The notes beneath the pieces were generated by a model. That model was not told the DNA's origin and ran no database searches. It worked only from the letters and a program-made list of their open reading frames with translations. A program made the translations under genes and the position numbers. From the NCBI RefSeq assembly GCF_000308375.1, contig NZ_BAFQ01000295.1, positions 1 to 64,000 on the forward strand: a stretch of 64,000 nt of DNA, in the 5' to 3' direction. Below are positions 3,173-31,161 of the stretch, one piece after another. This DNA comes from Nocardia aobensis NBRC 100429 (GTDB lineage: Bacteria; Actinomycetota; Actinomycetes; Mycobacteriales; Mycobacteriaceae). Position 1 is the stretch's first letter, and each line of letters opens with the position of its first letter.

Positions 3173-3275
3173 CGCGACTCCCTGTGCCGGGCAGCCGGTT
3201 TCGGCGCGGTGAGCCGACCGCGAGGGGGTTCCTGAGAAACCCAACGGGTGGACAGCTCCGGGCCGAGACCGCTAT

Positions 3276-3292
3276 GTTTCATTCACCGAAAC
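3276..3292. promoter_or_regulatory. IclR-type operator candidate 1 (GTTTC-N7-GAAAC)
   Basis: A perfect 17-bp interrupted palindrome, GTTTCATTCACCGAAAC, between the divergent secreted hydrolase and CitE-like lyase genes. It is the first of six perfect copies in the window. An extra GTTTC half-site follows at 3296-3300. Confidence 0.65.
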
Positions 3293-8987: not shown

Positions 8988-9673
8988 CCCTGCAACTCCC
9001 GGCGCACCTGTTCGGATTGCTCGGTGCCCAGCAGGCGGGTCACCTGATGCCACACCGGGTCGACCTCGGGGCTGAACAGGTTGGCGCGATTCGCGCGATC
9101 GCGGGCCGGCAGATCGGCATCCGGGGCCGGAACGCCCTTGTCCAGCAGGGTGAGCCAATGCCGCAGGTATGCGTCGACGGTCTCGGTGAGTTGCCCGAAC
9201 GCCGATTCGCTCGCCCGGCACACCACCATCCACGGTGACATCAGCGCCCGCTGCCGGGGACCGATGGCGGCCGGTGCGACGCCGTCGAGCTGCCAGGCCG
9301 CATCCAGCAGCGGCGTCAACGGCAGATAGACGGCGTCCAGATAATCCAGATTCACCGCCAGATCGGCACGCGGAATCAGGTCCAGGTGCATGGCGTAGTA
9401 CTCGCCGCCGTAGACCGCGTCGAGCGTGAAATGCGGCACCGCGGAATCGGCCGCGGTGAACGCGAAGATCATATGGCTGTCCAGGCCGATGGGCGGCACC
9501 ACCAGATCGACGGTCACCACCTTGTCGATCTGACCACCGCGCAACACCCGCAACCTGCCCACCGGTCCGGGTGACATGGGACTGTGCAGCGCTCTGTCCT
9601 CGACGACGATCGAACCCGTTGCGCCGGAAAGTGTTTCGAGAGTGCGCGTACTCAGCGTGGTGGGCAGGCTCAT
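8984..9673 (-). CDS. Red chlorophyll catabolite reductase-like protein 1
   Basis: A 229-residue protein that aligns by eye with plant RCC reductase (the ACD2 protein). VPHFTLDAVYGGEYYAMHLD (about residues 79-98), then IPRADLAVNLDYLDAVY, match the plant core APNFVVELIQ...LDLPHRKDLVLNPDYLKEYY. Asp85 sits where the plant enzyme has its catalytic Glu. A C-terminal EVDPVW may match the second catalytic Asp. RCCR reduces a linear tetrapyrrole with ferredoxin in chlorophyll breakdown. The start is ATG 9673 (GGAGGAG upstream), overlapping the Rieske stop as ATGA, so the two are translationally coupled. The match is from memory and not from a search. Confidence 0.65.
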   Translation of the reverse strand: MSLPTTLSTRTLETLSGATGSIVVEDRALHSPMSPGPVGRLRVLRGGQIDKVVTVDLVVPPIGLDSHMIFAFTAADSAVPHFTLDAVYGGEYYAMHLDLIPRADLAVNLDYLDAVYLPLTPLLDAAWQLDGVAPAAIGPRQRALMSPWMVVCRASESAFGQLTETVDAYLRHWLTLLDKGVPAPDADLPARDRANRANLFSPEVDPVWHQVTRLLGTEQSEQVRRELQG

Positions 9674-10791
9674 CGTGGGTCTCCTCCCTGGCGGGCCTTG
9701 TGCACCCAGGCGGCGGCGAGTTCGGGATCGTCCAGGCGCGCGGGGGAGGCGATGACGGTGGCCCTGCGTCGCGGCGAATCGCCGGTGATCACATCGTCGC
9801 CGCCGAGCCACCAGCCGTCCTTGATCAACTGGGCGCGGCGCCGGCGGTAGGCGACCTGCAGGGCATCGCTGCGCACATGCAGCTCATCGGACAGGTCGAA
9901 CGGAAGCAGCTCCGGACGTTGGGATTCCACCACCGGCCGGTCCTGCAGCAGGATCTTCTCGATGCGCTTGCGGGCGTTGCCGTCGGCCCAGGAGGCGGTG
10001 AAGAAGTTTCGGAAGCCGAGAATCTTGATCAGTGTGCGGTCCTGCGAAAGCGGAATGTTGAAGTCGTAGAGCATCAGATTGCCGATCGGCAGCCGCACAT
10101 GCAGTTTCACGATATTCGGCAGATACCAGGCATTGGTGACGGTGACGTACTCCGGCATCGCCTTGCCGCGAAACAGCAGGCCCCACAGCCCCTTCGGTGG
10201 TGGCGGGCTCAGCGGAATATCCGCCTCCGCCGACCAGTCCGTCTGCCGTATCCGGAAATCCGGGATCTGCGGTTTGTCCGGGTTGCCGAACGCGGTGCCG
10301 TGCACGAAGGGTGTGTGCGAGGCGTCCACCACGTTCTCGAAGGCGCGTTCGTAGTTGGCGTCGATGACCATCTCGTACTGCACGGCCCGGAACGCCGGAT
10401 CCTCCCACTGCGGAATCTCCGGAATCGGTGGCCGCTGCGACTCGGGTAGATCGCCGAGGAACGCCCACACCATGCCGTAGCGCTCCACCGCCGGATAGGC
10501 GTCCACTCGCGCCTTGCGGGGGATGGCCCGTTCGGGCGCGTTGGCGGGGATGCGCACGCACACGCCGCCGGAGTCGTATTGCCAGCCGTGGTACGGGCAG
10601 GTGATGCAGTCCCCGCTCACCGTTCCCAGCGACAGGGCGCCGCCGCGGTGCACGCACAGATCCGACAGGCAGACCGGCGCGCCGGATTCGGCGCGATAGA
10701 GCACGAAGTCCTGGCCCAGGCAGGTCACCCGGCGCGGCGCCCGGCCGACCTTGTCCGCGAATTCCATTGCGTACCAAAAGTTCTTGAGCAC
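9670..10791 (-). CDS. Rieske non-haem iron oxygenase, pheophorbide a oxygenase-like
   Basis: A 373-residue alpha-subunit-type oxygenase. The Rieske [2Fe-2S] ligands are Cys46-x-His48 and Cys65-x2-His68 (CPYHGW). The mononuclear iron site is ENVVDASHTPFVHG, with His159 and His164. The catalytic domain resembles the PaO/TIC55 group: ENVxDxSH, then LPIGN...YDFNIPL...RNFF, then a late basic region. It lacks the C-terminal membrane anchor and CxxC of plant PaO. PaO opens the pheophorbide macrocycle. The start is at 10791, 10 bp after the preceding stop; the stop overlaps RCCR-like 1. Electron donors are not encoded nearby. An aryl-demethylase or other aromatic monooxygenase role is the alternative. 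Confidence 0.8.
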   Translation of the reverse strand: MLKNFWYAMEFADKVGRAPRRVTCLGQDFVLYRAESGAPVCLSDLCVHRGGALSLGTVSGDCITCPYHGWQYDSGGVCVRIPANAPERAIPRKARVDAYPAVERYGMVWAFLGDLPESQRPPIPEIPQWEDPAFRAVQYEMVIDANYERAFENVVDASHTPFVHGTAFGNPDKPQIPDFRIRQTDWSAEADIPLSPPPPKGLWGLLFRGKAMPEYVTVTNAWYLPNIVKLHVRLPIGNLMLYDFNIPLSQDRTLIKILGFRNFFTASWADGNARKRIEKILLQDRPVVESQRPELLPFDLSDELHVRSDALQVAYRRRRAQLIKDGWWLGGDDVITGDSPRRRATVIASPARLDDPELAAAWVHKARQGGDPR

Positions 10792-10801: not shown

Positions 10802-11743
10802 TCAGCGCCGCTTCAGCAGCAGTCCGTCGTCGAAACCCGACAGTTCGTCGCGGGCGGTCGCCGAATCCTTCAGGTGGGCGTTCAGGAACAGTGTGGTCAG
10901 CCGTGCGAATCGGGGCAGGGCATCGGACTCCGCGGGCCCGTCGAGGAATGCGCGGGCCGCGGTCGGATCGGCGTCGGCGATGCCGAAATGATTGGCGCCC
11001 GGCACGATCGCGAGCAGATGCTCACCCTCGGGCAGTGCCTCGGCGAAGGTGCGGGCCACCGGATCCGGCCGATCCGCGCCCTCACCGTAGCGGTCGGCGC
11101 TGCCCTGGATCACGCCGTCGTTGCCGCCGACACCCAGCAGCACCGGGCAGCTCACCTGCGCGGGAAGCACCGTACCCGGGTCCCAGCCCAGCATGGTGGC
11201 GACCATGGTGTGCGCGCCCCACGCGAAAACCGCTCGCACGGAAGCGAAGTACCGCGCGGACTGCAACACCACGGTGCCGCCCGCCGAATGGCCGCCCAGT
11301 GCGACGCGCTCCGGATCGAGTGCGCCGCGCAACGGTGCGGTGGTGTTCAGTTCGGCCAGCGCGTCCAGCACCGCCGGGATGGTCGGGCAGGTGGGCCGGG
11401 TGCCGTAGGTGTCGGGTCGCGCGGCCGCCAGATCGACGCCGGGCGTGAGCCCGCGCTGCCCACCGAACAGATCGGCCACCCGATCGAAGGTGACCACCAC
11501 ATAACCGGATTCGGCGATCGCGGTCGCGAATCGGCGATAGCTGTCCTGCCCGACATTGACACCGGACAGGAAAACCACCACCGGATAGGGTGCGCCGGCC
11601 GGATCGGGGGCGAAGACGCCGGTGAGCCGCTCGGCGTCGTCGCCGGAGGCGACGGCGGGGTAGTAGAGCTTGAGGTGGGCAGTGTCGAAGGGGGCGTCGC
11701 CGTCGGTGCGCGCGGACCACCACAGGGAGCGGATCAGGCTCAT
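10802..11743 (-). CDS. Alpha/beta hydrolase, chlorophyllase/dienelactone hydrolase-like
   Basis: A 313-residue cytoplasmic serine hydrolase. PYPVVVFLSGVNVGQDSYRR (about residues 52-71) and YVVVTFDRV resemble the oxyanion region of chlorophyllases. The nucleophile is GGHSAGG with Ser153, the acid is probably Asp209 (GGNDG), and the base is His252 (GANHFGI). The start is ATG 11743, two bases after the previous stop (TGACCATG); the longer ORF to 12115 is spurious. Between a Rieske PaO-like gene and an RCCR-like gene, removal of phytol or another ester group from a tetrapyrrole is a natural guess. The chlorophyllase assignment is weak. Confidence 0.65.
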   Translation of the reverse strand: MSLIRSLWWSARTDGDAPFDTAHLKLYYPAVASGDDAERLTGVFAPDPAGAPYPVVVFLSGVNVGQDSYRRFATAIAESGYVVVTFDRVADLFGGQRGLTPGVDLAAARPDTYGTRPTCPTIPAVLDALAELNTTAPLRGALDPERVALGGHSAGGTVVLQSARYFASVRAVFAWGAHTMVATMLGWDPGTVLPAQVSCPVLLGVGGNDGVIQGSADRYGEGADRPDPVARTFAEALPEGEHLLAIVPGANHFGIADADPTAARAFLDGPAESDALPRFARLTTLFLNAHLKDSATARDELSGFDDGLLLKRR

Positions 11744-11745: not shown

Positions 11746-12555
11746 TCACCCCACCGGCCGCGGCAGCACCCGGTCCCCGCCCCAGAGGGCGCGCACCAGT
11801 CGCTGGGTGAGTTCGGGGCCGAACATGCGCTCGCCCATGACGTTCGCAGGATCGCGTTCGGCGATGTTGCGGCGTATCCGCAGATCCCGGGCCGCGAGGT
11901 CGGCGCGCTCGTCGTCGGGTACCGGTTCGGCGGCGTCCACCCATCCCAGCCACTGGTCGACCTTGGCGGTGAGCAGTTCGGCCACGGTGTCGAGATTGGG
12001 TCGGGTGGGTGGGAAGGAATAGCAGTAGGCGACCGGTGAGAGGCTGGTGCGGATGAATCCGGTGCGGCTGGTGAACCAGGTGAAGTCGGGGTGGTCCGCC
12101 TTGAACGCCAGCCACGGCTCGTCGGCCTCGGCGTAGTAGCGGTCGTAATAGTCGCCGTCGCCCACCAGATCACCACGAGGCACCGCATCCACGTAGAACC
12201 AGCCCTGCGGCCACAGCAGCAGCGCCGACGCCAGATGCGGTACCCGTACCTGCGGCCCGAGCCACGCCGTGAGGTGCATGTTCACGAAACCGGTGCGGGG
12301 ATCGCCGATCCAGGAATGCACCAGCCAGTCGATCTCGGGTCCGGTGTAGGCGGCGAGGCGGCCGGAGGGTCCGGTCGCCGCGTCTCCGTAGGAGTCGAGG
12401 TCGGCGGTACTGGGGTCGCGGGTCAGCTCGAACCGGCCGGCGATCCTGGCCTGCAGTCCGGCCAGCAGCCGCTGCCATTCCGAAAATGTCTCGGTGACAT
12501 CGGTTCTGGGGTTCTCGTCGACCATCTGCTCGACATGTCGCACGGTTTCACTCAT
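11746..12555 (-). CDS. Red chlorophyll catabolite reductase-like protein 2
   Basis: A 269-residue protein with full-length similarity to plant RCC reductase by eye: EIDWLVHSWIG (about 74-84; plant PIDFVIGSWI), VRVPHLASALLLWPQGWFYV, VPRGDLVGDGDYYDRYY, FIRTSLSPVAY, and the tail RDLRIRRNIAERDP...ERMFG (plant RDKSFRRKSIEDD...PRMFG). The plant catalytic Glu position is Ala here, but the C-terminal Asp (ERDP) is kept. This is the inverse of RCCR-like 1, so the two may work as a pair or on different substrates. The start is ATG 12555, overlapping the preceding stop (ATGA). The ORF extension to 12774 is not supported. Confidence 0.7.
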   Translation of the reverse strand: MSETVRHVEQMVDENPRTDVTETFSEWQRLLAGLQARIAGRFELTRDPSTADLDSYGDAATGPSGRLAAYTGPEIDWLVHSWIGDPRTGFVNMHLTAWLGPQVRVPHLASALLLWPQGWFYVDAVPRGDLVGDGDYYDRYYAEADEPWLAFKADHPDFTWFTSRTGFIRTSLSPVAYCYSFPPTRPNLDTVAELLTAKVDQWLGWVDAAEPVPDDERADLAARDLRIRRNIAERDPANVMGERMFGPELTQRLVRALWGGDRVLPRPVG

Positions 12556-14219
12556 GGCAGCTCCGGTTCGGTTGTCGCGGTGGCAGGTTCGCGCAGGAGG
12601 GCGGACACGGCGGCGGCGGGACGTCCCGCGACCAGATCGGTGCCCCGGGATACGGCGCGGTTCACGGCTTGGGCCGGTCGGATGTCGGCCTGCACCCGGT
12701 TCGCGCCGGGCGGGGCGGAGGTCACCTGCGGGGCGCTGATCACCCCGGTGAACGGCCCGCTCCAGGCCGTCCACAAGGTGAAATCCGGGCTCAGCGCGTA
12801 GATCGAACCGGCCAGCGCCCCGGTCGAATCCACGGCGGCGGCGACGATGTTGAGCCGATTCTCGGCCGCTCGTTCCGGCAGGCCGAGCCGCGTTTCCCAG
12901 GGTTCACCGAGAGCGTGCGGCACTGCCACCACATCGGCGTCCCCGACCGCGGCCAGGCGGAAGGTTTCGGGGAACAGCGCGTCGTCGCCGACCACGAGAG
13001 CCAGTCGGCCCCAGGGCATGTCGAAGATTTCGAGGGCATCGCCCAGATCCGACAGCCACGGGTGGCGTTCGGTGCGGTGCAACTGGCGCTGATATCCGGC
13101 CACGCCCTCGGCGTTCACCAGCACTCCGACATGCGCGTCACCGTCGCGCAGGGATACCACGACATGCGCCGTCGTCCCCCGCAGCGCCGCCGCCACCTCC
13201 GGAACAGACACCGTCGCTGATGGGCGCTCGGCCGACGCCGTGCCGGTCAGCGCCGGCAGCACGATCAATGCGGCGCCGCTGCGGGCGATATCGCCGATGA
13301 GGCCGACATCGGCGAGTGCCGCGGCCACGGGGAGGGTCGGCGCACCGGCAGGGGCGCGCCGGGGTGAGATGTCGAGCATCGGGGCGTAGAGGCGGGGGCG
13401 GCGAGCGGCGAGCACATCGGTTCCGTCGGGACGCCGTTTGTCGTCGGCGAGACCGATATCGATATCCGCCACGACCACCGCCTCACCGCGTGCCGGTGCG
13501 CGCGCCACCGTCGTCCCGTCCGGTGCGACGATCTGGCTCTCGCCGGCACCGTGCAACCGATCCGGCGGGACTCCCAGCCGGGCCGCGATCGAGGGCAGCT
13601 CGTCCTCGGGTAGCAGCGGGCCGACCTTGTTGGCCGCCACCACCCATACCTTGTTCTCCGCCGCGCGTACCGGAATGTGCAGGCTCGCCTCGTCGGTGGC
13701 GAAGGAGTTGAGGCTGTTGAGCAGCAGCTGCGCGCCGCGTATCGCCAGCGACCGGGTCACCTCGCAGATGACGCCCTCCATGCAGGCGTACAGGCCGATG
13801 CGGCCCAGCGGGGTGTCGACGACCTCGGAATCGGAGTCACCGGGGTCGAGGTGATCGTTCTCCGCGCCCATCAGAATCTGCTTGTCGGACTGCCCGAGCA
13901 GGGCGCCGTCGGGGCCGAACAGCAGGCCGGTGCCGGTGGTGCGGCCGTCCTCGCGGGCCAGCGTCACCCCGATCTTGGTGTACATCCGATGCTGTGCGGC
14001 GCGTTCGGCGATCGCGGTCAGGAATCGATCTCCGATCCGGCACGCCATTCGGTGCGCGTGGTCGCGGTCGGCGTACCACGATAGGTGGTTACAGAACTCG
14101 GGCAGGACCACCAGATCCGGCGCGTGCGCTGCGGCGTCGTCGATGAGGCGCAGGCAGGTGGCGAGGTTGACCGCGACATCGGTGCCGGCGGCGAGCTGGA
14201 CGGCGGCGATTCGCGTCAT
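12552..14219 (-). CDS. Tandem carbon-nitrogen hydrolase, second domain degenerate
   Basis: A 555-residue protein with two nitrilase-superfamily domains. Domain 1 (about 1-300) has the complete triad Glu41 (LPEFCN), Lys113 (SDKQIL) and Cys146 (YACMEG). Domain 2 (about 330-540) keeps the fold (IVLPAL, AENRLNIVAA) but has VVGDDALFPE where Cys should be, so it is probably non-catalytic. The family hydrolyses amides, carbamoyl groups or nitriles. The start is ATG 14219 with a perfect AAGGAGGT 8 nt upstream; the 644-codon open frame to 14486 is rejected. It is the first gene of the operon, behind operator 2. Confidence 0.8.
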   Translation of the reverse strand: MTRIAAVQLAAGTDVAVNLATCLRLIDDAAAHAPDLVVLPEFCNHLSWYADRDHAHRMACRIGDRFLTAIAERAAQHRMYTKIGVTLAREDGRTTGTGLLFGPDGALLGQSDKQILMGAENDHLDPGDSDSEVVDTPLGRIGLYACMEGVICEVTRSLAIRGAQLLLNSLNSFATDEASLHIPVRAAENKVWVVAANKVGPLLPEDELPSIAARLGVPPDRLHGAGESQIVAPDGTTVARAPARGEAVVVADIDIGLADDKRRPDGTDVLAARRPRLYAPMLDISPRRAPAGAPTLPVAAALADVGLIGDIARSGAALIVLPALTGTASAERPSATVSVPEVAAALRGTTAHVVVSLRDGDAHVGVLVNAEGVAGYQRQLHRTERHPWLSDLGDALEIFDMPWGRLALVVGDDALFPETFRLAAVGDADVVAVPHALGEPWETRLGLPERAAENRLNIVAAAVDSTGALAGSIYALSPDFTLWTAWSGPFTGVISAPQVTSAPPGANRVQADIRPAQAVNRAVSRGTDLVAGRPAAAVSALLREPATATTEPELP

Positions 14220-14244: not shown

Positions 14245-14261
14245 GTTTCGTAGAACGAAAC
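14245..14261. promoter_or_regulatory. IclR-type operator candidate 2
   Basis: GTTTCGTAGAACGAAAC, a perfect GTTTC-N7-GAAAC palindrome. It lies 26 bp upstream of the first gene (12552-14219) of the RCCR/Rieske operon, just upstream of its Shine-Dalgarno site. Confidence 0.7.
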
Positions 14262-14391: not shown

Positions 14392-14420
14392 TTGACAGCC
14401 GTCGTCGCCGACGGTTCAAT
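14392..14420 (+). promoter_or_regulatory. Promoter of the membrane protein / NCS-like operon
   Basis: TTGACA (14392-14397), a 17-bp spacer, then TTCAAT (14415-14420). This is a good sigma-70-type promoter, upstream of operator 3, which would then lie at about +15 to +30, a roadblock position. Confidence 0.5.
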
Positions 14421-14439
14421 ATGGCAACTGCGAAACCGT

Positions 14440-14456
14440 GTTTCTTTCTGCGAAAC
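14440..14456. promoter_or_regulatory. IclR-type operator candidate 3
   Basis: GTTTCTTTCTGCGAAAC, a perfect GTTTC-N7-GAAAC site ending 17 bp before the ATG of the membrane protein gene at 14474. Confidence 0.65.
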
Positions 14457-14473: not shown

Positions 14474-15691
14474 ATGACGACACCACCGGCGGGAGCGCGG
14501 CCCGGGTCCGGAGCCACGCGTGCTGAACTGCCCCCCGCGAGCCGGACCGGAACGTGGCTGCTCGCCATCGCCGCGGCGGCGGCCGGGCCTATGACGGGTA
14601 TCGAGATCGTCTTGCTGAGCAAACCGCTCGGTGGTGTGGTCGGGCTGCCCGCCGCGGTCGTGGGGTATATCGCCCTGACCGCGGGGATGCTCGGGGGTCT
14701 GACGGTGTTGCCGGGCGTGCGGCTCCGGTTCACCGCGTCGAGTCGCCGCACCGGCGCGCTCGCCGTCCTCGGTGGCGTGGGAATACTTGTCGCAGCGCTG
14801 TTTTCGTCGATGCCCGCCTTCCTGTGTGGCGTGGTCGTGGCCGGTGTGGCGGCGGGACCGCTGCTCGTCACTGCTCGGGCCGTCGCCGGTGTCCGAGTCT
14901 GCTACGCAGCGGTGACGGTCGCGTTGCTCGCGGGTGCCGTGCTGGCCGGCGCGTGCGGCCGGCAACCGGACGAGGCGCTGTTCGTGGCCGGGAGTGTGGT
15001 GATCGCGGCCGGATTGTCGGTGTCGGTGCGGAACGCATCTTTCGGCGGTGTCGCGGGCGGCCTGCGCGTGTCCGGTACCGCGCTGCGCGGCGGGATGGGA
15101 TATGCGGCAGTCGGATTCGCCCTGGGGGCGACGGTGCTGCCGGCCCTGCACCTGCTGCTGTTTCGCTGGGAGGTGCTCGACGCCGATCAGCCTGCGCGCC
15201 TAGCCCTCGCGATGGTGCCGGCGGTGCTCGTGGTCGCCGCGCGCGGATACCGGCTGTGTGCGGTGCCGCCGCTGCTGATTCTCGCCGCCGGCGGCCCGGT
15301 GCTGGTGGCGACCGCGCCCGGCGCATGGCAGTCGATGATCGGTGTGGCGGTCACCGTCACGGCAGCGATCCGTTGCCTCTCCGTGCTGGACCACGAACTG
15401 CGACAGCGACTTCCGGGTAGCGAACAGTGGTGGAGCGCAGTGACCGGACTCGTCGTCGGGGTCGGTGGGATCTGCGGCCTCGGCGGCGCCGTCGCCTGCG
15501 GGCGGCTGTGGGGGACCGGCTCCGCGCTCACCCTGGCCGGCGTGCCGGTGTTGCTGGCCGCGCTGGTGATCGCGCGGACGTCGGCGCCCGGCGGCGGCCG
15601 AACCCAGACCGTCGACCGCCGCGCCGATGCGGACGACCGTCCCACCGCCCCTCAGCCCAGCGAGATCGCCGTCGAAGGAGGCGCCCGATGA
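14474..15691 (+). CDS. Multi-pass membrane protein, possible MFS-like transporter
   Basis: A 405-residue protein with about 11-12 hydrophobic segments, starting at residue 29 (WLLAIAAAAAGPMTGIEIVLLSKPL) and ending with LTLAGVPVLLAALVIART before a charged C-terminal tail. It looks like a 12-TM transporter of about MFS size, but I see no diagnostic MFS loop motif. The start is ATG 14474 with GGAGGTGA upstream and operator 3 in front. The stop overlaps the start of the first exported NCS-like gene (ATGA at 15688-15691), so uptake or export of the ligand bound by those proteins is a reasonable inference. Confidence 0.65.
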   Translation: MTTPPAGARPGSGATRAELPPASRTGTWLLAIAAAAAGPMTGIEIVLLSKPLGGVVGLPAAVVGYIALTAGMLGGLTVLPGVRLRFTASSRRTGALAVLGGVGILVAALFSSMPAFLCGVVVAGVAAGPLLVTARAVAGVRVCYAAVTVALLAGAVLAGACGRQPDEALFVAGSVVIAAGLSVSVRNASFGGVAGGLRVSGTALRGGMGYAAVGFALGATVLPALHLLLFRWEVLDADQPARLALAMVPAVLVVAARGYRLCAVPPLLILAAGGPVLVATAPGAWQSMIGVAVTVTAAIRCLSVLDHELRQRLPGSEQWWSAVTGLVVGVGGICGLGGAVACGRLWGTGSALTLAGVPVLLAALVIARTSAPGGGRTQTVDRRADADDRPTAPQPSEIAVEGGAR

Positions 15692-16266
15692 AACGCGCAC
15701 TACTACGGGGTGGACTGGGCCTCGCGTTCGCGGCCGCCATCGCGGCACCCGCCGCGGCCGACACGCCCGCCACTCTGCACATCGACGCCGCGACGGACCT
15801 GCGGGAGGGGCAGCGAGTCACGGTGGACGGCAGCGGTTTCCAGCCAGGCCTGGCGGCGGTTGCCGTGGGGCTGTGTAAACAGGGCTATACCAACGGGTTG
15901 AACGATTGCGATCTCGACGGCGGCGCCACCTTCGTCAATATCGCCTCCGACGGAACCTTTCCGACGCTCGTGCTCACTCTGCATCCGAAGTTCGAGAACA
16001 TCGACTGCCTGCGGCAGCAGTGCGTGATCGCGGCCGCGCCGCTGCCCGGTACCGAACCCGCCGGAGTCATCGCCGCCAATTCCGCCGTGACTCCCGTGGT
16101 TTTCGCGGGCTCGAGCCTTCCCCCGCCCGCGGCCGTGCCGGTGGCCGGCACGGTGGCGGCGGGCTCCACCGATACGCGCGGCCCGTCCGCGGTGCTGTGG
16201 TCGCTGACCGCGGCACTGCTGGTCGTCGTCGCCGCAATCGCCCTCGCCGACCGGCGGCGGCTCTAG
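15688..16266 (+). CDS. Exported neocarzinostatin-like protein 1, C-terminal membrane anchor
   Basis: A 192-residue protein with a signal peptide (MKRALLRGGLGLAFAAAIAAPAAA), an immunoglobulin-like neocarzinostatin-family domain (GQRVTVDGSGFQPGLAAVAVGLC, about residues 37-60, paired cysteines later), a Pro/Ala linker, and a C-terminal TM segment followed by ADRRRL. It is therefore probably displayed on the outer face of the membrane. The start is ATG 15688 with AAGGAG 7 nt upstream, overlapping the transporter stop. Neocarzinostatin apoproteins bind bulky aromatic ligands. Capture of a hydrophobic macrocycle fits the context but is inference. Confidence 0.75.
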   Translation: MKRALLRGGLGLAFAAAIAAPAAADTPATLHIDAATDLREGQRVTVDGSGFQPGLAAVAVGLCKQGYTNGLNDCDLDGGATFVNIASDGTFPTLVLTLHPKFENIDCLRQQCVIAAAPLPGTEPAGVIAANSAVTPVVFAGSSLPPPAAVPVAGTVAAGSTDTRGPSAVLWSLTAALLVVVAAIALADRRRL

Positions 16267-16284
16267 GAAATCCAGGAGGAGCAC

Positions 16285-16692
16285 ATGTTTCGAACCAGAA
16301 ACCTGGTGAGCGCGGTATTCGCGGGACTCACCGCTGTCGCGATGTTCGGTGGGGCGCCCGCCCAGGCGGCCACGGTCGCGGTGAGCCAGTCCGGTGGTGT
16401 CGCGGTCGGGCAGAGCGTCAGCGTCTCGGTGAGCGGGCTGGCACCTGATCTGGCCTCGGTCGCGGTCGGGCAGTGCACGACGAACATCTCCGGGCCCTCG
16501 GACTGCAATCTCGCCGGCTCGCTGCTGGGCACCGCCGACGCGCAGGGTAATTGGGACGCCGGCAGTATCACCCTGGTCGGCTCCGTCGGTGGCGTGGACT
16601 GCACGGCGCAGGCGGGCGCGTGCACGATCGCGGTCACCAGCCTGACCGACCCGACCAATATCCTCGCCTCGATTCCCCTCAGCTTCGGATGA
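16285..16692 (+). CDS. Secreted neocarzinostatin-like protein 2
   Basis: A 135-residue protein with a signal peptide ending near AQAA (about residue 29) and a single neocarzinostatin-type Ig fold. VGQCTTNISGPSDC has the 10-residue Cys-Cys spacing of the first disulfide of neocarzinostatin. VDCTAQAGAC is the probable second disulfide. There is no C-terminal anchor, so it is free or periplasmic-like. The start is ATG 16285 with AGGAGGAG upstream, 18 bp after the previous stop. It is highly similar to the next gene (QGNWDAG/QGAWQPG, TSLTDPTNILAS/TSLTDPGNILAS), indicating tandem duplication. Confidence 0.75.
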   Translation: MFRTRNLVSAVFAGLTAVAMFGGAPAQAATVAVSQSGGVAVGQSVSVSVSGLAPDLASVAVGQCTTNISGPSDCNLAGSLLGTADAQGNWDAGSITLVGSVGGVDCTAQAGACTIAVTSLTDPTNILASIPLSFG

Positions 16693-16702
16693 GGTCGACA
16701 CC

Positions 16703-17281
16703 ATGAGACGCAGCATCTTTCGCAGCGCCGTCGGCGCGGCGGTGACGGCCGTCGCGCTGCTGGTGACGGCCCCGCTCGCCGCGGCCGCACCCACCCTGCA
16801 TCCCACGCCCACCGGCGATGTCACCGTCGGTGAGGTCGTCACCGTCGCCGTGGACGGACTGCCATCCAACCTGGCCCAGGTGGCGGTCGGCCAGTGTAAA
16901 CCGCAGGTGGTCGCGCCCACCGACTGCAATCTCGGCGCCTCCCTGCTCGGCTCCGCCGACGCGCAGGGGGCCTGGCAGCCCGGAATGCGCGGCAACACCA
17001 TCACGCTGACCGCGTCGGTCGGTGCGGTGGACTGCACCTCGGCGCCCGGCGCCTGCACCCTGGCCGTCACCAGCCTCACCGACCCCGGCAATATCCTCGC
17101 CTCGGTGCCGCTGACGTTCACCCACGCCCCGGCGGTCGCCACGACGGCACCGAAAGCTGCTGCGGCGGACAGTGATTCATCCGACTCGCACACGACGGCG
17201 ATCGTCGTCGCGATCGTGGTGGTCGTGGTCGTCGTGCTCGCGGTGGCCGGATTGCTGGTGCGGCGACGACGTCGAACCTGA
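16703..17281 (+). CDS. Exported neocarzinostatin-like protein 3, C-terminal membrane anchor
   Basis: A 192-residue protein with a signal peptide (MRRSIFRSAVGAAVTAVALLVTAPLAAAA) and a neocarzinostatin-type domain (VGQCKPQVVAPTDC, VDCTSAPGAC). A Ser/Asp-rich linker, a Val-rich TM segment and a basic tail RRRRRT form a type I anchor. It is a paralogue of the 135-residue protein before it. The start is ATG 16703 with a weak GAGG site 10 bp after the previous stop. It is the last gene of the four-gene plus-strand unit, which ends in a 40-bp palindromic terminator. Surface ligand binding is inferred from the fold and topology. Confidence 0.75.
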   Translation: MRRSIFRSAVGAAVTAVALLVTAPLAAAAPTLHPTPTGDVTVGEVVTVAVDGLPSNLAQVAVGQCKPQVVAPTDCNLGASLLGSADAQGAWQPGMRGNTITLTASVGAVDCTSAPGACTLAVTSLTDPGNILASVPLTFTHAPAVATTAPKAAAADSDSSDSHTTAIVVAIVVVVVVVLAVAGLLVRRRRRT

Positions 17282-17337: not shown

Positions 17338-18744
17338 TCAGGGCGGGTAGGCGCGAGCGGACAGCCCCGCACCGCCGGCGCGGAACGCTGCGGGCAGGTG
17401 GGTGACGGTGGTCTGCACGTATTCGCGCAGTCCCTCATCGCCGTATTCCCGGCCGTATCCGCTGCGTTTGGTCCCGCCGAACGGGGCACGCAGTGACATT
17501 CCGGTGCGGTTGTGGGTGTTGACGAAGGTGAAGCCGGCTTCCAGTCGCGCGGCGAAGTCGAAGGCGCGCTCCTCGTCGGCCGACCACACCGACGCCGCGA
17601 GCCCGAGCGCGGAATCGTTGGCGCGAGCCCGGACTTCGTCCTGCGTGCGGTAGGTGAGCAGCGGTACCGCGGGCCCGAACTGTTCGGTGACCACGAGCGG
17701 CGCATCGTCGGGCAGATCCAGGACGAGCACGGGGTCGACGAAATAGCCCTCTCCCACCGGGCCTTTCGCCAGCGGGACGACGCGTCCACGGCTGCCCGCC
17801 TCCGCGATCAGTGCTCGAAGTCGTTCCGCGGCGGCGCGCGTCACCACCGGGCCCATGGTGACATCCTCGTCGACCGGATCGCCGACCCGCAGAATCCGCT
17901 GGGCCGCAGCGGTATACGCCGCCAGGAACTCCGCCGCGCGGTGTTCGGGCACATAGAGCCGTTTGGCGGCCATGCATACCTGTCCGGAGGTGGCGAAGGA
18001 GGCAAGCACCAGGCGTTCGTAGTCGTCCGGAGAGAGCGCGAAATCATCGAGGAAGACCGCCGGATCGTTGCCGCCGAGTTCGAGCACCACCGGCGTCAGC
18101 GCTTCCCCCGCCGCGGCGGCGATGCTGCGCCCGGCGCTCTCGCCGCCGGTGAAGGCGACCTTCCCGACCGCGGGATGGGCGATCAGCGTCCGCACCACCT
18201 CCGGCCCGCCGTGCACCACGGTGGTCTCCGGCAGCGCCTCGGCGACCGCCGACACCGCGAGCGGCGCCAGCGGTGAGGGCTTGAGCACCACCGTATTTCC
18301 GGCGGCCAAGGCGGGACCGAGTTTCACCATCGCCAGAATGATGGGAGCGTTCCACGGTGTGATAGCGGCGATCACACCGAACGGGCGCGGCGTGATCCGC
18401 AACCGCCCTTGGGCGTCATCGATCTCGGTGTCGGCGAAGATCACCGGGGCCCGATCGCAGAGCCAGCGCAGATAGGTGACGGCGAAACCGATTTCGCCCC
18501 GGCAGTCGGCGATGGGCTTGCCGGACTCCCGGGCGAGCAGCAGCGCCAGCGCCTCCCGGTCCGCCGCGATGCGGTCGGCGGCGGTGCGGAGTCGGGCCAG
18601 CCGTTCGTCCAACGGCCGCCGCGACCAGTCCCGAAAACTCCGTTCCGCGTGCCGCACGAGCGCATCCACCTGTTCCGGTGCGGTGACCCGGACCGAGCCG
18701 ACGATCTCGGCCGGACGGGCCGGATTCTCGCGCTCGATCCTCAC
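17338..18744 (-). CDS. NAD(P)-dependent aldehyde dehydrogenase 1
   Basis: A 468-residue ALDH-superfamily enzyme. GVIAAITPWNAP begins the cofactor domain, FTGGESAGRSI is the NAD-binding turn, VLELGGNDP carries the general base Glu, and SGQVCMAAKR carries the catalytic Cys. FGGTKRSGYGREYG is the C-terminal signature. It starts at GTG 18744, which overlaps the stop of the monooxygenase (GTGA); the 643-codon open frame to 19269 is rejected. It is the last gene of the 23015-17338 operon and ends at the palindromic terminator. It probably oxidises an aldehyde formed by the monooxygenases upstream. Confidence 0.85.
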   Translation of the reverse strand: MRIERENPARPAEIVGSVRVTAPEQVDALVRHAERSFRDWSRRPLDERLARLRTAADRIAADREALALLLARESGKPIADCRGEIGFAVTYLRWLCDRAPVIFADTEIDDAQGRLRITPRPFGVIAAITPWNAPIILAMVKLGPALAAGNTVVLKPSPLAPLAVSAVAEALPETTVVHGGPEVVRTLIAHPAVGKVAFTGGESAGRSIAAAAGEALTPVVLELGGNDPAVFLDDFALSPDDYERLVLASFATSGQVCMAAKRLYVPEHRAAEFLAAYTAAAQRILRVGDPVDEDVTMGPVVTRAAAERLRALIAEAGSRGRVVPLAKGPVGEGYFVDPVLVLDLPDDAPLVVTEQFGPAVPLLTYRTQDEVRARANDSALGLAASVWSADEERAFDFAARLEAGFTFVNTHNRTGMSLRAPFGGTKRSGYGREYGDEGLREYVQTTVTHLPAAFRAGGAGLSARAYPP

Positions 18745-19883
18745 GCCGTCGACTCCAGGCTGTCCATCAGGCAGGCGCGGCGCAGATAGGCGCGGGCCGC
18801 GGCGGGATCGGCAGCCAACTCCCGCAGACCACGGCGGTATTCGGCCTCGTGGGTGCGCAAGCGCGTCCAGTTGGCCCGGCTCGTGCGCTGCACATGGTCG
18901 ACCGCCACCCTCCGGCGCTGCCGGACCGCCTGCTCCAGCACCTCGTCGGGAGCGCCCGCCAGCACGTCGGCGAGAGCGGACCCCATCCACACCGCGTCGT
19001 GAATGCCGCTGTTCATCCCCAGCCCACCGAGCGGATTGTTCACGTGCGCGGCATCGCCCATCAACAACACCCGGCCATAGCGGAACCGTGGCGCGACCCG
19101 CTCGTGCACGTGATACAGCGAGGCATGCGCGATCCGCCACGGCCGGCCGAGGTCGGCTACCCGCGCCAAACGTTCGGGCAGACGGCGCAATTCGAGATCG
19201 TCGGCGGTATCCGCGGGCGTCGGCAGCAGCACCCGCCAGTGGTCGGGGGTGCGCAGCAGCACCAGCCACTCGTCGGGGTCGAACACGTAGTTGATCGGGG
19301 CGATACCCGGCAGCGCCGCGTCGAGCTGTTCGTCGACCGAGGCGACCAGGAACCGCTCCGGATAGGTGCTGCCCTCGAACTCCGCGCCGACCCCACCCCG
19401 GACCGCCGAATGTGCCCCGTCCGCGCCGATCAGCCAGTCACATCGCACCGGCCCGCGCGAGGTGGACATCCGCACGCCGTGGGATCCCGTCTCGACGCCG
19501 TCGACGGTATGGCCGAACCGCACGCGCACCGAATCGGGTAGCGCGTCGAGCAGTATCGGGGTGAGTTTGCTCTGCTCACACTGCACCCGGTACGGGAAAT
19601 CGGTATCACCGGCCAGTACGCCGAGATCGAGGGTGGCCACCGGGTCGCCGCCACGCTCGCGGTACTGAAAGGTGCTCGCTACCAGTCCTTTTCCCAGCAG
19701 GGCGTCGACGACACCGAGATCGCGCAGCATTTCCAGCGTGGGCGGATGGAAGGTCGACGCGCGCGATTCACCCGCCAGTCCCGCACCCTGCTCGAGGACG
19801 GTGACCTCCACACCGCGCCGCGCCAGCACCAAGGCGGCGGTGAGCCCCACGGGCCCGGCCCCGGCGATCGCCACCGTGGTCAT
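18741..19883 (-). CDS. FAD-dependent PHBH-type monooxygenase
   Basis: A 380-residue flavoprotein monooxygenase. The N-terminal GAGPVGLTAALVLARRGVEV binds FAD, RASTFHPPTLEML is a substrate-domain entry, LIGADGAHSAVR is the conserved DG motif, and MGDAAHVNNPLGGLGMNSGI is the GD motif. The family hydroxylates aromatic or enolic rings. Start and stop both overlap neighbours (ATGA at 19880-19883, GTGA at 18741-18744). In this operon it could hydroxylate a pyrrole- or bilin-type intermediate, but the substrate is unknown. Confidence 0.85.
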   Translation of the reverse strand: MTTVAIAGAGPVGLTAALVLARRGVEVTVLEQGAGLAGESRASTFHPPTLEMLRDLGVVDALLGKGLVASTFQYRERGGDPVATLDLGVLAGDTDFPYRVQCEQSKLTPILLDALPDSVRVRFGHTVDGVETGSHGVRMSTSRGPVRCDWLIGADGAHSAVRGGVGAEFEGSTYPERFLVASVDEQLDAALPGIAPINYVFDPDEWLVLLRTPDHWRVLLPTPADTADDLELRRLPERLARVADLGRPWRIAHASLYHVHERVAPRFRYGRVLLMGDAAHVNNPLGGLGMNSGIHDAVWMGSALADVLAGAPDEVLEQAVRQRRRVAVDHVQRTSRANWTRLRTHEAEYRRGLRELAADPAAARAYLRRACLMDSLESTA

Positions 19884-21268
19884 GACGTGTGCAGGGCGAA
19901 GCGCCCCTCGACGCCGACGACCCGCGCGCCGGTGAAGAACTGCAAGGTCTCGGCCGTCCCCTCTTCGCCGAGTCCCGATATGCCCCAGGCGGGACGCGGG
20001 GTCATCGGATGCAGGCTCATGATCGAGGAGCCGTTCACCTTCACCTCACCGGCTCGGATCCGGCGCGCGACCGCGAGCGCGAATTCGGTGTCCGTTCCGC
20101 ATACATAGCCTTCCAGGCCGTAGGGCACGGCGTTCGCGATGTTCACCACGTCCTCGACGCGGTCGTAGGTGACGACCCCGGCGACCGGGCCGAAGATCTC
20201 CTCGTGCGAGTCGCCGTCCAGAAGTGCTGGGGCGCAATAACTTCCCGACTGCGGCAGCACCCCGTACACGTGGTGTTCGCTACCGTCCAGCGCGGCGCGG
20301 ATCGCGGCCACATGCCGTGAGTGCACGAGCGGGCCCAGATCGGTGCCGAGATCCAGTGGTGGACCGATGGACAGCGTCGCGAGCTGCTTACCGATGGCCT
20401 CTGTCAATTCCCCGGCGCGGTCCGCGGGCACGATCAGCCGCCCCAGCGCTCGGCACCATTGCCCGTTGAGGGTGGTGAGCAGTTCGGCGGCCATCCGCGC
20501 CGCGGTCTCGGTGTCGGCGTCGGGAAGGACGACCAGGGGATTGTTCCCGCCCAATTCCAGCTGGCACGGCCGCAACAGCGGCGCCGACGCGCCCGCCACA
20601 GCGCGCCCGCCCGCCACGCCACCGGTGAACGACACCGCCTTGATCCGGGCATCGGCGGTGAGCCGGGCGCCGGTGCCCGCATCGCCGTGCACCAGCTGGA
20701 ACATGCCGGCCGGCACCCGTTCGGCGATCGCCTCGGCCAGTATCACCGCACTGTAGGGCGCCAATTCGCTCACCTTCAGGATCACCGGGCAGCCGGCGGC
20801 GAGGGCGCCCGCGACCTTGTGCGCGGCCATCGGCGCGGGTGCGTTCCACGGCACCAGGCACAGCGCCGGACCCAGCGGCAGTCGATGCACCTCGACGCCG
20901 TCGCGATCCGCGCGCAGTGCGCCGCCCCGAATCTGCGCGGCGGCCAGGCGGAACGAACCGGCGACGATCGCCCCGAGCGGCCGGGTCTGCCGCAGCGGCA
21001 CCCCCGTCGCGAAGGCGTCCAGTTCGGCGATGCGTTCCAGACGTGGTTCGAGGTCGTCGGCGATCGCCTCGAGGGTTTCGGGCTCGATGCGTCCGGTGGC
21101 GTTGTCGGCCACCGCGAGTGCGCGCTCGAGCCGGTCGGCGGTGGTGGCGACGGTACGGCTCACAACCTGCCCGGTGGCCGGATCTTCCAGCGTCCCCTCG
21201 AGTTCCGTGCCGGGCATACTCCAGGTGTCGTCGATCAGATCGCGAATCGCGGGCAGGCGCACCGTCAT
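19880..21268 (-). CDS. NAD(P)-dependent aldehyde dehydrogenase 2
   Basis: A 462-residue ALDH. LCLVPWNAPAPMAAHKVAGALAAG is the cofactor/active-site entry, SFTGGVAGGR the NAD turn, QLELGGNNP the Glu motif, and GQWCRALGR the catalytic Cys. EEIFGPVAGVVTYD is typical of class enzymes. It is not closely similar to the ALDH at 17338, so the operon carries two different aldehyde oxidisers, which suggests two distinct aldehyde products. It is coupled to the flavoprotein upstream and the monooxygenase downstream by ATGA overlaps. Confidence 0.85.
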   Translation of the reverse strand: MTVRLPAIRDLIDDTWSMPGTELEGTLEDPATGQVVSRTVATTADRLERALAVADNATGRIEPETLEAIADDLEPRLERIAELDAFATGVPLRQTRPLGAIVAGSFRLAAAQIRGGALRADRDGVEVHRLPLGPALCLVPWNAPAPMAAHKVAGALAAGCPVILKVSELAPYSAVILAEAIAERVPAGMFQLVHGDAGTGARLTADARIKAVSFTGGVAGGRAVAGASAPLLRPCQLELGGNNPLVVLPDADTETAARMAAELLTTLNGQWCRALGRLIVPADRAGELTEAIGKQLATLSIGPPLDLGTDLGPLVHSRHVAAIRAALDGSEHHVYGVLPQSGSYCAPALLDGDSHEEIFGPVAGVVTYDRVEDVVNIANAVPYGLEGYVCGTDTEFALAVARRIRAGEVKVNGSSIMSLHPMTPRPAWGISGLGEEGTAETLQFFTGARVVGVEGRFALHTS

Positions 21269-22539
21269 TTCGCGGCCTCCGCCGGCGCGGTGGCGAACAG
21301 GTCGTTGGCGCGCGCGTCGGTGACGATGCGGGCCACCTCGAGGAGTCCGCGTTCGGCCGGGAAGGTCATGACCAGCCCCATGGCCAGATCGCGCAGTGCG
21401 CGGCCGGCGATACCGTTCATCGACGCCGCCGATGTCCCGCCCGCCTTCAGCGCGCCCAGTGCTACCTGGAAACAGGCCTCGGTGACCGCGCCCTTACCCA
21501 GGCGCCACTGCGCGAACACCTCCTGCTTCGGCTTGAACGGCACCTCCGCGGTCTCCACCGCGAGCTGATAGCGCAACCACAGGTACGCGGTCTCCAGCTG
21601 GCGGGTCATCTCACCGAACAACACCTGATGCACCGGTGAGGACGCGATCGGCTCGCCGGTATCGGCGAAAGTCTTCGTCGTTGTCGCCGTGAGGATTTCG
21701 TCATACACCCGCTGTGCGCATCCGGTGTAGACCGCGGCGATGGCGAGCTGATTGCCGACGAAACTGCCGCGGCTCATGGTCAGCATCTTGGTGAAGGCCC
21801 CCGGAACAGCGAGCGCTTCGTCGTCGGGGATGAACACGGTGTCGAGCCGGATGCCGTTGTTGGCGGTCGCGCGCATTCCCAGACCGTCCCACGGCGCCCG
21901 CACACTCACCCCGTCGGCGGCGCGTGGCACGAAGAAGGTGGCCAGACCCTCCGCGGTGTCGTAACCCTCCAGTTTCGCGGAGGTCAGATAGTAATCGGCG
22001 ACGCCGGTCGCGCAGCCGAAAGACTTCTCCCCGTGGAGAACCCATCCGCCGTCGACCTTCGTCGCGGTCGTCGCGATGGTGATGTTGGCGGACGAGGTCT
22101 TCACCGATTCGGAGGCGAAATTGGCCAGCCACACCCCGTCGGCCATCCGGGTGAGCACCTTCTCGGCGAAGGCGCGCACCACCGGAATCTCCGCCTCGTC
22201 GAACAATCCGGCGTCGATCGCCTCCAACGGCAGCAGCCCGCGCGAGGCGCTGGTGTTGTGGAAGAAGTAGGCCAGTGCCGTGGACGGGCAGGCGGTGCCC
22301 ATGGCGTAGGTGGCGGCGGCGAGATCGCGCAATGTGCCGCCGAGGCCGCCGAATTTCTCCGGAACCACCAGCCCCAGCAATCCGGCGTCGCGGAGCAGCG
22401 CGATATGCGAGACCGGGAAGGTGGCGGTGCGGTCGGCCTCCTCGGCCGCCGCACGCAGTGCCGGTAGCACCGATTCGACGCGACGGGCGCGTTCGCGCTC
22501 CGCGGCGGTCATCTGTTCGACGAGTCGTTCTCCGATCAT
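21265..22539 (-). CDS. Acyl-CoA dehydrogenase-fold flavoprotein, probable two-component monooxygenase
   Basis: A 424-residue protein with the acyl-CoA dehydrogenase fold: GLLGLVVPEKFGGLGG (N-terminal helical domain), KTSSANITIATTATKVDGGWVLHGEKSFG (middle beta domain) and FGEMTRQLETAYLWLRYQ (C-terminal helices). I do not see the usual catalytic Glu motif of true dehydrogenases. The gene directly follows a flavin reductase. Both points favour a class D monooxygenase (DszC/HpaB-like) using reduced FMN or FAD. The start is ATG 22539, overlapping the reductase stop (ATGA). A CoA-ester dehydrogenase role remains possible. Confidence 0.7.
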   Translation of the reverse strand: MIGERLVEQMTAAERERARRVESVLPALRAAAEEADRTATFPVSHIALLRDAGLLGLVVPEKFGGLGGTLRDLAAATYAMGTACPSTALAYFFHNTSASRGLLPLEAIDAGLFDEAEIPVVRAFAEKVLTRMADGVWLANFASESVKTSSANITIATTATKVDGGWVLHGEKSFGCATGVADYYLTSAKLEGYDTAEGLATFFVPRAADGVSVRAPWDGLGMRATANNGIRLDTVFIPDDEALAVPGAFTKMLTMSRGSFVGNQLAIAAVYTGCAQRVYDEILTATTTKTFADTGEPIASSPVHQVLFGEMTRQLETAYLWLRYQLAVETAEVPFKPKQEVFAQWRLGKGAVTEACFQVALGALKAGGTSAASMNGIAGRALRDLAMGLVMTFPAERGLLEVARIVTDARANDLFATAPAEAAK

Positions 22540-23024: not shown

Positions 23025-23041
23025 GTTTCGGTAGTGGAAAC
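23025..23041. promoter_or_regulatory. IclR-type operator candidate 4
   Basis: GTTTCGGTAGTGGAAAC, a perfect GTTTC-N7-GAAAC site directly upstream of the Shine-Dalgarno site of the flavin reductase gene. Confidence 0.65.
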
Positions 23042-31023: not shown

Positions 31024-31047
31024 GACTGAACTCCTCATCGACCAAAC

Positions 31048-31064
31048 GTTTCTCAGAGCGAAAC
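31048..31064. promoter_or_regulatory. IclR-type operator candidate 7
   Basis: GTTTCTCAGAGCGAAAC, a perfect GTTTC-N7-GAAAC site 25 bp upstream of CoA-transferase 2. Confidence 0.65.
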
Positions 31065-31150: not shown

Positions 31151-31161
31151 TGGAGAAGGTT

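Follow-up and report, generated by a model that had tools for sequence, protein, structure and literature searches.

Neocarzinostatin-family proteins and a predicted transporter share an operator with a red chlorophyll catabolite reductase cluster in Nocardia, suggesting a route for the capture of chlorophyll-like pigments

Introduction

Proteins of the neocarzinostatin (NCS) family are known as holders of enediyne antibiotics. Here we describe members of this family in a different setting, a 64,000-nucleotide stretch of Nocardia aobensis NBRC 100429 (positions 1 to 64,000 of contig NZ_BAFQ01000295.1, assembly GCF_000308375.1; hereafter the window). Positions 14474-17281 of the window hold four plus-strand genes, one for a transporter followed by three for exported NCS proteins (NCS1 to NCS3), and these diverge from an operon encoding a member of the red chlorophyll catabolite reductase (RCCR) family. 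Because the transporter and the three NCS genes lie under the same control sites as a cluster that looks fit to dismantle a pigment, the arrangement suggests an as yet undescribed bacterial way to capture and consume chlorophyll-like pigments.

Several described systems share features with this one. Like the apoproteins of neocarzinostatin, C-1027 and macromomycin, the NCS proteins of the window score above the cut-off of the family hidden Markov model and keep its four cysteines; unlike them, two of the three are membrane-anchored, they are coupled to a transporter in what appears to be a catabolic regulon, and they miss the cut-off of the chromoprotein model NF040680. By analogy, the system resembles the Isd/NEAT heme relay in plan and is not a member of it. 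Both would use several small surface domains on a probable macrocycle cargo, and surface anchoring is evident from sequence here too, through transmembrane anchors in Nocardia and through LPxTG or LAxTG motifs in five of nine Micromonosporaceae proteins, a family with sortase-type tails and, in Micromonospora, an ATP-binding cassette (ABC) permease/ATPase set. The domains, on the other hand, are of the NCS family rather than NEAT, no ABC importer adjoins the NCS genes of the window, where a protein of predicted major facilitator superfamily (MFS) fold stands instead, and the cargo would be food, not an iron source. With the plant PaO/phyllobilin pathway the cluster has in common a Rieske oxygenase, an RCCR-family protein and an esterase-type hydrolase, brought together in one operon; it differs in being bacterial, in the VanA_C type of its Rieske enzyme, and in adding a second RCCR-like protein, a calycin and, following ring opening, a putative maleimide arm.

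Two bacterial precedents bear on its parts. CwpG of Actinoplanes missouriensis is a candidate cell-wall sortase substrate with a neocarzinostatin-like domain, and the available portion of its account draws no link to RCCR genes (mBio 2026, PMC13251363). The Pre-PcyA/BBAG clusters of heterotrophic bacteria are likewise conserved groups of genes that include relatives of the RCCR/bilin reductase superfamily; according to the available portion of that report their partners are heme oxygenase, V4R and globin proteins, which set them apart from the cluster here, and RCCRs serve as the outgroup (PNAS 2023, PMC10151467). Among the matches listed in a search of the open-licence literature, which included plant pathway papers and PMC10151467, none described a bacterial RCCR/Rieske/NCS cluster, and in the accessible text of PMC4950323 terms for microbial or soil fate matched once, in the reference list.

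Results

A predicted transporter and three anchored or free NCS proteins

All three NCS proteins of the window exceed the curated PF00960 cut-off of 25 bits, with 42.3 for NCS1 (scanned from an in-frame start upstream of 15688), 43.0 for NCS2 and 29.9 for NCS3, and they account for all three PF00960 matches in the genome. PF00960 is the sole family over its cut-off in these proteins, and a Pfam scan at E up to 1 found no NEAT domain in them. NCS1 and NCS3 end in a hydrophobic stretch and a basic tail, which NCS2 lacks, and the tail of NCS1 matches the NCBIfam GPS-CTERM sorting signal (40.4 against a cut-off of 28; E 2.4e-10). The initial annotation, made from the letters of this stretch, had thus correctly described three exported proteins of the neocarzinostatin fold, two anchored and one free. 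The four family cysteines, which form two intradomain disulfides, are kept in 70, 70, 69 and 70 of 70 aligned proteins, a set that takes in three comparison proteins unlinked to RCCR. The trio also matches the enediyne chromoprotein model NF040680 (E 1.8e-11 to 6e-13), at 47.5, 48.8 and 44.1 bits against an equivalog cut-off of 86, and single-sequence matches to C-1027, macromomycin and kedarcidin are weak (E 0.03-0.07). All three belong to PF00960 and fall outside the enediyne chromoprotein equivalog.

The 14474-15691 product matches no Pfam family at E up to 1. Its AlphaFold2 model (mean pLDDT 84.3, built from 22 sequences) contains 14 helical segments, which we interpret as 12 membrane helices, in keeping with the 12-TM-like protein originally noted. 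In a structural comparison (VIA-align) the best 50 entries, all of which we take to be MFS carriers, gave Z scores of 29.7-32.3 over about 340-360 residues, so that by prediction the protein has an MFS fold. FLVCR2 tops that list; with scores near-tied among the best 50, its rank in this model-based comparison is a tie that tells nothing about the substrate. A search for plasmid copies of the transporter gave no match.

The divergent operon, headed by a carbon-nitrogen hydrolase (nitrilase) gene, encodes the RCCR relative, RCCR1, at 47.9 bits against the curated PF06405 cut-off of 24.9. A profile of RCCR1 relatives compared with the Protein Data Bank (PDB) finds plant RCCR at 4.5e-17 and bilin reductase at 6.1e-8. 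Together the transporter-NCS genes belong to a cluster of about 30 kb that also includes a Rieske oxygenase, a calycin and imidase-, amidase- and maleate-isomerase-like enzymes (Table 1). Its proteins are 97-100% identical to those of genome G077.

Co-occurrence and gene order across Nocardia

We screened 98 Nocardia genomes for PF00960 and PF06405 (E up to 0.001). The first family is present in 22 of them and the second in 21, all 21 being among the 22; the remaining 76 genomes match neither family. In every one of the 21 shared genomes both families lie on one contig, the nearest NCS gene being within about 10 kb of the RCCR gene. The Fisher p value of 1.7e-20 for this co-occurrence is a naive figure, as the genomes are kin. 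The sole PF00960 genome among the 77 without an RCCR match is G054, an assembly of about 1,340 contigs, whose NCS genes adjoin the hydantoinase- and isochorismatase-like genes of the cluster on a contig of 3.8 kb. The co-occurrence search proposed with the initial annotation therefore came out in favour of the link, with RCCR present in 21 of the 22 PF00960 genomes. The refuting pattern named there, similar trios spread widely without linked RCCR or Rieske genes, was not seen in Nocardia; in Micromonospora some PF00960 genes do occur in genomes without RCCR, and their products group apart in a tree, as described below.

Gene order is equally steady. All 19 full-length loci (of 20; the locus on the 3.8-kb contig, L036, was left out of these counts) hold genes for the maleate isomerase, short-chain dehydrogenase (SDR), calycin, RCCR2, Rieske oxygenase, hydrolase, RCCR1, nitrilase, transporter and NCS1. 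An NCS gene lies inside the flanks of 22 of the 25 Nocardia RCCR loci; in L099 and L108 it lies just beyond them, and in L111 the transporter gene is at the very edge. The trio itself is not constant, since seven of the 22 PF00960-bearing genomes have three matches and 15 have two, and a best-match ortholog of NCS2 is found in nine of the 20 loci. Relative to the window, identities across the Nocardia loci are 50-78% for the NCS proteins, 37-56% for the transporter (mostly 37-51%) and about 63-92% for the core enzymes; judged by these values, the surface part changes faster than the enzymes.

A palindromic operator common to both arms

The window contains six exact copies of the palindrome GTTTC-N7-GAAAC, against 0.01 expected from shuffles, and one more, within a gene, completes the seven found in the whole 7.55-Mb genome. 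A longer version that includes a third half-site has three copies in the genome, every one of them inside the window. The shared operator proposed at the outset takes a sharper form here, with one copy on the transporter-NCS side and another on the nitrilase-RCCR side. Among 26 Nocardia sequences aligned upstream of the nitrilase gene we see conserved promoter-like blocks, and two palindromes in the divergent loci. Cluster-bearing genomes are also richer in the palindrome, with a median of 8 (range 4-12) in the 22 that carry the cluster and of 2.5 (0-7) in the 76 others (p 2.4e-12).

Of 25 Nocardia loci, 23 have an exact palindrome no more than 150 bp from the called start of the nitrilase gene, and one more has it with one mismatch; in L107 an exact copy lies 2 bases from the called start and was hence missed by the count. 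In other genera it precedes the nitrilase gene at one mismatch in 41 of 53 loci (two of 55 were left out, their upstream stretch being unusable), and the reversed pattern used as a control was found in 0 of 78. For the transporter we discarded a count of 25 of 25, which may catch the neighbouring nitrilase operator, and relied instead on four Nocardia loci whose transporter-NCS block has been relocated to the other end of the cluster. All four have their own palindrome at the transporter promoter, two exact and two with one mismatch, and the link between NCS and RCCR genes is therefore regulatory, beyond mere position. The palindrome is probably read by the IclR-family protein encoded at 23140, whose gene travels with the cluster, adjoining the flavin-enzyme operon in many other genera.

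RCCR loci beyond Nocardia and a second transporter type

The named genome collection holds relatives of RCCR1 at 149 places, of which the best 80 were taken as loci, 25 in Nocardia and 55 in Nonomuraea, Actinomadura, Streptosporangium, Micromonospora, Actinoplanes, Catellatospora, Dactylosporangium, Streptomyces and other genera. Enzyme order is largely kept across the 80, the exceptions being L116, with hardly any of the enzymes in reach, and L134, which is rearranged; the calycin is present in 78. NCS genes accompany nine of the 55 loci outside Nocardia, all in Micromonosporaceae. Five of these nine proteins, from Actinoplanes, Paractinoplanes, Catellatospora and Hamadaea, end in a sortase-type arrangement, with an LPxTG or LAxTG motif followed by a hydrophobic segment and basic residues.

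RCCR turned up in four Micromonospora genomes, each of which has an NCS gene on the same contig. In the three stretches examined, NCS is the seventh gene of an eight-gene run, right after a gene for a fused ABC permease/ATPase, and each stretch has a single exact palindrome, 79 bases upstream of where the first gene of the run is called to start. Pfam resolves the fused protein of one of the three, from G288, into two branched-chain-type permease domains and an ATPase; the run also encodes another ATPase, a WxL-interacting-type protein and, scoring below its cut-off, a WxL-like protein. The coupling at the centre of the initial annotation, which joins NCS proteins with a transporter and the tetrapyrrole-like operon, is accordingly seen in conserved order, co-occurrence and operator in the Nocardia genomes that bear it, and recurs in Micromonospora with a permease/ATPase set where the window has an MFS-fold protein. 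A suspected kinship between the Nocardia transporter and the membrane half of this transmembrane-ATPase fusion was rejected (profile comparison probability 7.6%), and the identification of L070:908-2266 from Micromonospora as a LivK-type binding protein was dropped, as it has no Pfam family and no useful PDB match.

A tree of NCS domains separates 63 RCCR-linked rows from three Micromonospora PF00960 proteins without such a link, and places the Micromonosporaceae proteins with Nocardia NCS1 (support 97/87). The tree rests on 121 columns, is rooted for drawing only, omits four of 70 rows as identical or short, and comes with a program warning that long branches meet between the main groups. Its topology points to NCS1 as the oldest of the three, with NCS2 and NCS3 perhaps having arisen in Nocardia.

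Loci without NCS have genes for other transport proteins. The Microtetraspora locus L114 has an SBP_bac_5 importer, a close copy of which is found in the Streptosporangium locus L120, and in both a one-mismatch palindrome precedes the binding-protein gene. Proteins that look MFS-like by eye occur in NCS-less loci of Nonomuraea, Actinomadura and Streptomyces. It thus seems that the occupant of the importer slot is exchanged from lineage to lineage, against a steady set of enzymes. In other genera the palindrome, exact or with one mismatch, also precedes genes for exported hydrolases, including the relatives of the hydrolase at 2231..3178.

Discussion

Our preferred reading, to which we assign a probability of roughly 0.55, is that the transporter-NCS operon serves for uptake in a regulon that breaks down a hydrophobic tetrapyrrole, with a pigment from chlorophyll breakdown as the likeliest substrate. 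NCS1 and NCS3 on the outer face of the cell, together with free NCS2, would capture the macrocycle and deliver it to the MFS-fold protein for import. Inside the cell, the calycin would carry it, the alpha/beta hydrolase would remove an ester, the Rieske enzyme would open the ring and the RCCR relatives would reduce the open chain. The flavin enzymes and aldehyde dehydrogenases could then split and oxidise the chain to maleimide-type fragments, to be fed into central metabolism by the imidase-, amidase- and maleate-isomerase-like enzymes, and a single palindromic operator, probably read by the IclR protein, would switch all arms together. The notion of capture and import is well supported by anatomy and regulation. 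What the sequences show are the families of the genes, their linkage and co-occurrence, the common operator, the surface-type anchors and the predicted MFS fold; the ligand, the relay, the direction of transport, the order of steps and the regulator are inferred.

Oxidised tetrapyrroles break up into maleimides, and an imidase, an amidase and a maleate isomerase are the set required to take maleimides to fumarate-type acids. With substrates predicted from the gene list, a route from maleimides to central metabolism appears to be its best single reading. The calycin offers a hint of tetrapyrrole cargo beyond RCCR itself, because the N-terminal of its two predicted barrels is similar both to nitrobindin (Z 13.6) and to the CpeS bilin lyase (Z 11.3). 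The protein has no Pfam match, and its model aligns with the DUF3598/BFA1 type at Z 19.4 and 18.7.

The regulon is the strongest part of this reading and chlorophyll its weakest link. Several observations weigh against it, the first group of them on the side of the pigment. Of two residues that we take to be catalytic in plant RCCR, the Asp is kept in the RCCR1 alignment and the Glu is not. The Rieske protein contains Rieske, VanA_C and weak KshA_C domains and shows no PaO-type C-terminal domain in Pfam at E up to 1, and the 10802 hydrolase reaches 23.7 bits on the chlorophyllase family PF07224, under the cut-off of 26; by these membership tests the former is no PaO and the latter no chlorophyllase. 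A search for the Staygreen Mg-dechelatase PF12638 gave no match in the genome, with its control equally silent, and we draw no conclusion from it. The second barrel of the calycin also matches OmpT-type proteases and designed barrels, and since calycin barrels accommodate many ligands the fold names none.

A second group concerns the uptake arm and its control. An MFS fold by itself does not distinguish import from export, and the fast change of the NCS proteins and transporter also fits surface proteins under other pressures. No NCS gene lies within 10 kb in 46 of the 55 RCCR loci outside Nocardia, so NCS is an accessory module that the pathway as such does not require. A strong PF00960 match occurs in five Micromonospora genomes, and RCCR is absent from three of these; the PF00960 proteins of these three fall outside the RCCR-linked group of the tree. 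The 22 cluster-bearing Nocardia genomes are kin and do not amount to 22 independent events, and the four relocated loci are kin as well and may trace to one move. Because cluster-negative genomes hold up to seven copies of the palindrome, the 17-base pattern by itself is no proof. It is missing, at one mismatch and within 150 bp of the called start, from 12 of 53 nitrilase promoters outside Nocardia, among them at least that of L133, which has one just inside the called start, and the distant clusters L073 and L074 contain no exact copy.

The alternative that survives best, and to which we give somewhat less than an even chance, keeps the same uptake machine and changes the cargo to heme, bilins, prodiginines or an alkylmaleimide, chlorophyll not being involved. 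Relatives of the Rieske enzyme in the PDB, where SxtDIOX/SxtT, NdmA and dicamba demethylase are among the nearest, have diverse small aromatics as substrates, the maleimide-type genes could work on fragments of any pyrrole, and the PaO, chlorophyllase and Staygreen results given above, the last with its silent control, are what such a cargo would lead one to find. Chlorophyll is favoured instead by the better match of RCCR1 relatives to plant RCCR than to bilin reductase, and by the exported hydrolase, which is operator-linked and fits an esterified pigment.

An unlikely alternative reverses the direction of flow: the NCS proteins would hold a phototoxic pigment or intermediate outside and the MFS-fold protein would pump it out, protecting the cell. 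Such a shield would resemble the known apoproteins of the family, which sequester a toxic chromophore; the nearest MFS structures comprise exporters as well as importers, and an operator in common with the enzymes would suit a protective device too. Against it, the Micromonospora NCS gene stands beside a branched-chain-type ABC permease/ATPase set, generally known as an importer family, two Streptosporangiaceae loci place a one-mismatch palindrome before a solute-binding-protein gene, and a catabolic regulon needs an entry route, for which Pfam finds no other transporter family among the operator-linked genes of the window. That the trio is an antidote to enediyne antibiotics lying beside the RCCR operon by chance is very improbable and was set aside: PF00960 is the family of enediyne apoproteins, and the trio matches these weakly and the chromoprotein model as well, but it stays far below the cut-off of that model and shares its occurrence and operator with the RCCR regulon.

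Returning to pigment uptake, what the comparison shows is a separate branch of NCS proteins tied by operator, linkage and co-occurrence to a putative catabolic regulon with an RCCR relative, in two bacterial families and with two transporter types. If our reading is true, the fold gains a second job, the capture of macrocycles for uptake, and the gene set becomes a concrete candidate for how soil bacteria handle chlorophyll pigments or other tetrapyrroles. A wider version, in which the cluster-specific NCS branch is a surface capture relay for chlorophyll-type pigments feeding swappable importers (of MFS fold in Nocardia, of branched-chain ABC type in Micromonosporaceae), and the regulon a complete route that leads from tetrapyrrole by ring opening and RCCR-type reduction to maleimides and on to central metabolism in soil actinobacteria of several families, is tentative, and we would sooner bet against it than for it.

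Other features of the cluster

The remaining genes and sites are given in Table 1. Two proteins of the cluster belong to the arylmalonate decarboxylase/maleate isomerase family, the PDB comparison covering one of them, and Pfam also finds CoA-transferases and HMGL in the cluster. One operator lies inside the called hydantoinase-family gene, which suggests that the true start is downstream.

Table 1. Genes and sites in the window; numbers after family accessions are E-values unless marked otherwise
Feature	Position	Strand	Basis and remarks
Exported alpha/beta hydrolase	2231..3178	-	by eye; no Pfam match; signal peptide and GHSAG in sequence
Operator between CitE-like and exported hydrolase genes	3276..3292	.	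palindrome
CitE/HpcH-like C-C lyase	3350..4192	+	PF03328 4.3e-36
Maleate-isomerase-like enzyme	6541..7284	-	PF17645 4.8e-19; PDB maleate isomerase 5.3e-12
Short-chain dehydrogenase	7309..8076	-	PF00106 4.9e-40
Calycin, two-barrel, DUF3598/BFA1 fold (predicted)	8073..8987	-	AlphaFold2 pLDDT 85.6
RCCR2, weak second RCCR-like protein	8984..9673	-	PF06405 0.003, 17.3 bits, under cut-off 24.9
Rieske oxygenase, VanA_C catalytic domain	9670..10791	-	PF00355 9e-21; PF19112 2.2e-24
Alpha/beta hydrolase, dienelactone-hydrolase/PETase/chlorophyllase-like	10802..11743	-	PF01738 1.8e-8; PF07224 2.4e-5
RCCR1, red chlorophyll catabolite reductase family	11746..12555	-	PF06405 1.3e-12
Carbon-nitrogen hydrolase (nitrilase/amidase superfamily)	12552..14219	-	PF00795 1.2e-41; heads RCCR operon
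Operator, nitrilase-RCCR operon	14245..14261	.	GTTTC-N7-GAAAC
Promoter-like TTGACA..TTCAATAT, transporter-NCS operon	14392..14422	+	putative, from sequence and alignment; kept in divergent Nocardia loci
Operator, transporter-NCS operon	14440..14456	.	GTTTC-N7-GAAAC
Transporter, MFS fold (predicted)	14474..15691	+	405 aa; AlphaFold2 model and fold match; first gene of putative uptake operon
NCS1	15688..16266	+	exported, PF00960 8.5e-11; C-terminal transmembrane anchor and GPS-CTERM tail; Cys 63/74/107/112
NCS2	16285..16692	+	exported, PF00960 5e-11; unanchored; Cys 64/74/106/113
NCS3	16703..17281	+	exported, PF00960 6.1e-7; C-terminal transmembrane anchor; Cys 65/75/111/118
Aldehyde dehydrogenase	17338..18744	-	PF00171 8e-121
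FAD-dependent monooxygenase (FMO)	18741..19883	-	PF01494 3.3e-59
Aldehyde dehydrogenase 2 (ALDH2)	19880..21268	-	PF00171 8.3e-88
Acyl-CoA-dehydrogenase-fold flavin enzyme, possible two-component monooxygenase	21265..22539	-	PF02770/PF02771/PF08028
Flavin reductase	22536..23015	-	PF01613 2e-42
Operator between flavin reductase operon and IclR gene	23025..23041	.	palindrome
IclR-family regulator	23140..23925	+	PF01614 2.9e-45
Isochorismatase-family amidohydrolase, N-carbamoylsarcosine-amidohydrolase-like	24675..25298	-	PF00857 1.7e-37; PDB
MmgE/PrpD-family dehydratase	27594..29024	-	PF03972 4.2e-56
CoA-transferase family III	29836..31038	-	PF02515 1.5e-126
Operator, CoA-transferase/cyclase/MmgE-PrpD operon	31048..31064	.	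palindrome
Hydantoinase/allantoinase-family amidohydrolase, candidate imidase	31111..32625	+	NCBIfam, PDB; start uncertain
Operator, hydantoinase-family gene	31134..31150	.	palindrome

Some smaller observations come from the RCCR loci of other genomes. Near 18649-19650 of the Streptomyces loci L128, L130 and L147 lies a relative of the alpha/beta hydrolase with a signal-peptide-like start and a one-mismatch palindrome right upstream; judging from these sequences, ester cleavage may start outside the cell in these organisms. Just before the nitrilase gene, on the opposite strand, L114, L117, L120, L113, L128 and L140 encode a protein of 91-94 amino acids that looks Dabb-type (stress-responsive A/B barrel), and its cluster of relatives spans 18 loci, with L099 the one Nocardia locus. 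Many clusters outside Nocardia have a membrane protein of 210-230 amino acids between the SDR and maleate isomerase genes (L131:15405-16070 and L117:15375-16025, for example), and one member of this set, L069:11119-11802, has no Pfam match.

The two distant loci L073 and L074, from genomes G733 and G773, which are distant in the phylum, are smaller clusters with RCCR1, Rieske, RCCR2 and calycin proteins at 34-48% identity. The alpha/beta hydrolase has no match in either stretch, and L073 contains one weak NCS-like match (3e-4) at 16537. In Micromonosporaceae, L140:2181-3053 and five other loci encode, near the ALDH2 and FMO genes, what looks by eye like an isocitrate-lyase/PEP-mutase-like protein; it recalls dimethylmalate lyase and would fit the breakdown of an alkylmaleate. 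Downstream in the window itself, translations read by eye at 46267-49691 and 62766-63707 point to a possible hydrogenase locus, with a CRP-like protein, a HypB-like protein rich in His and a protein whose start resembles a NiFe-hydrogenase small subunit.

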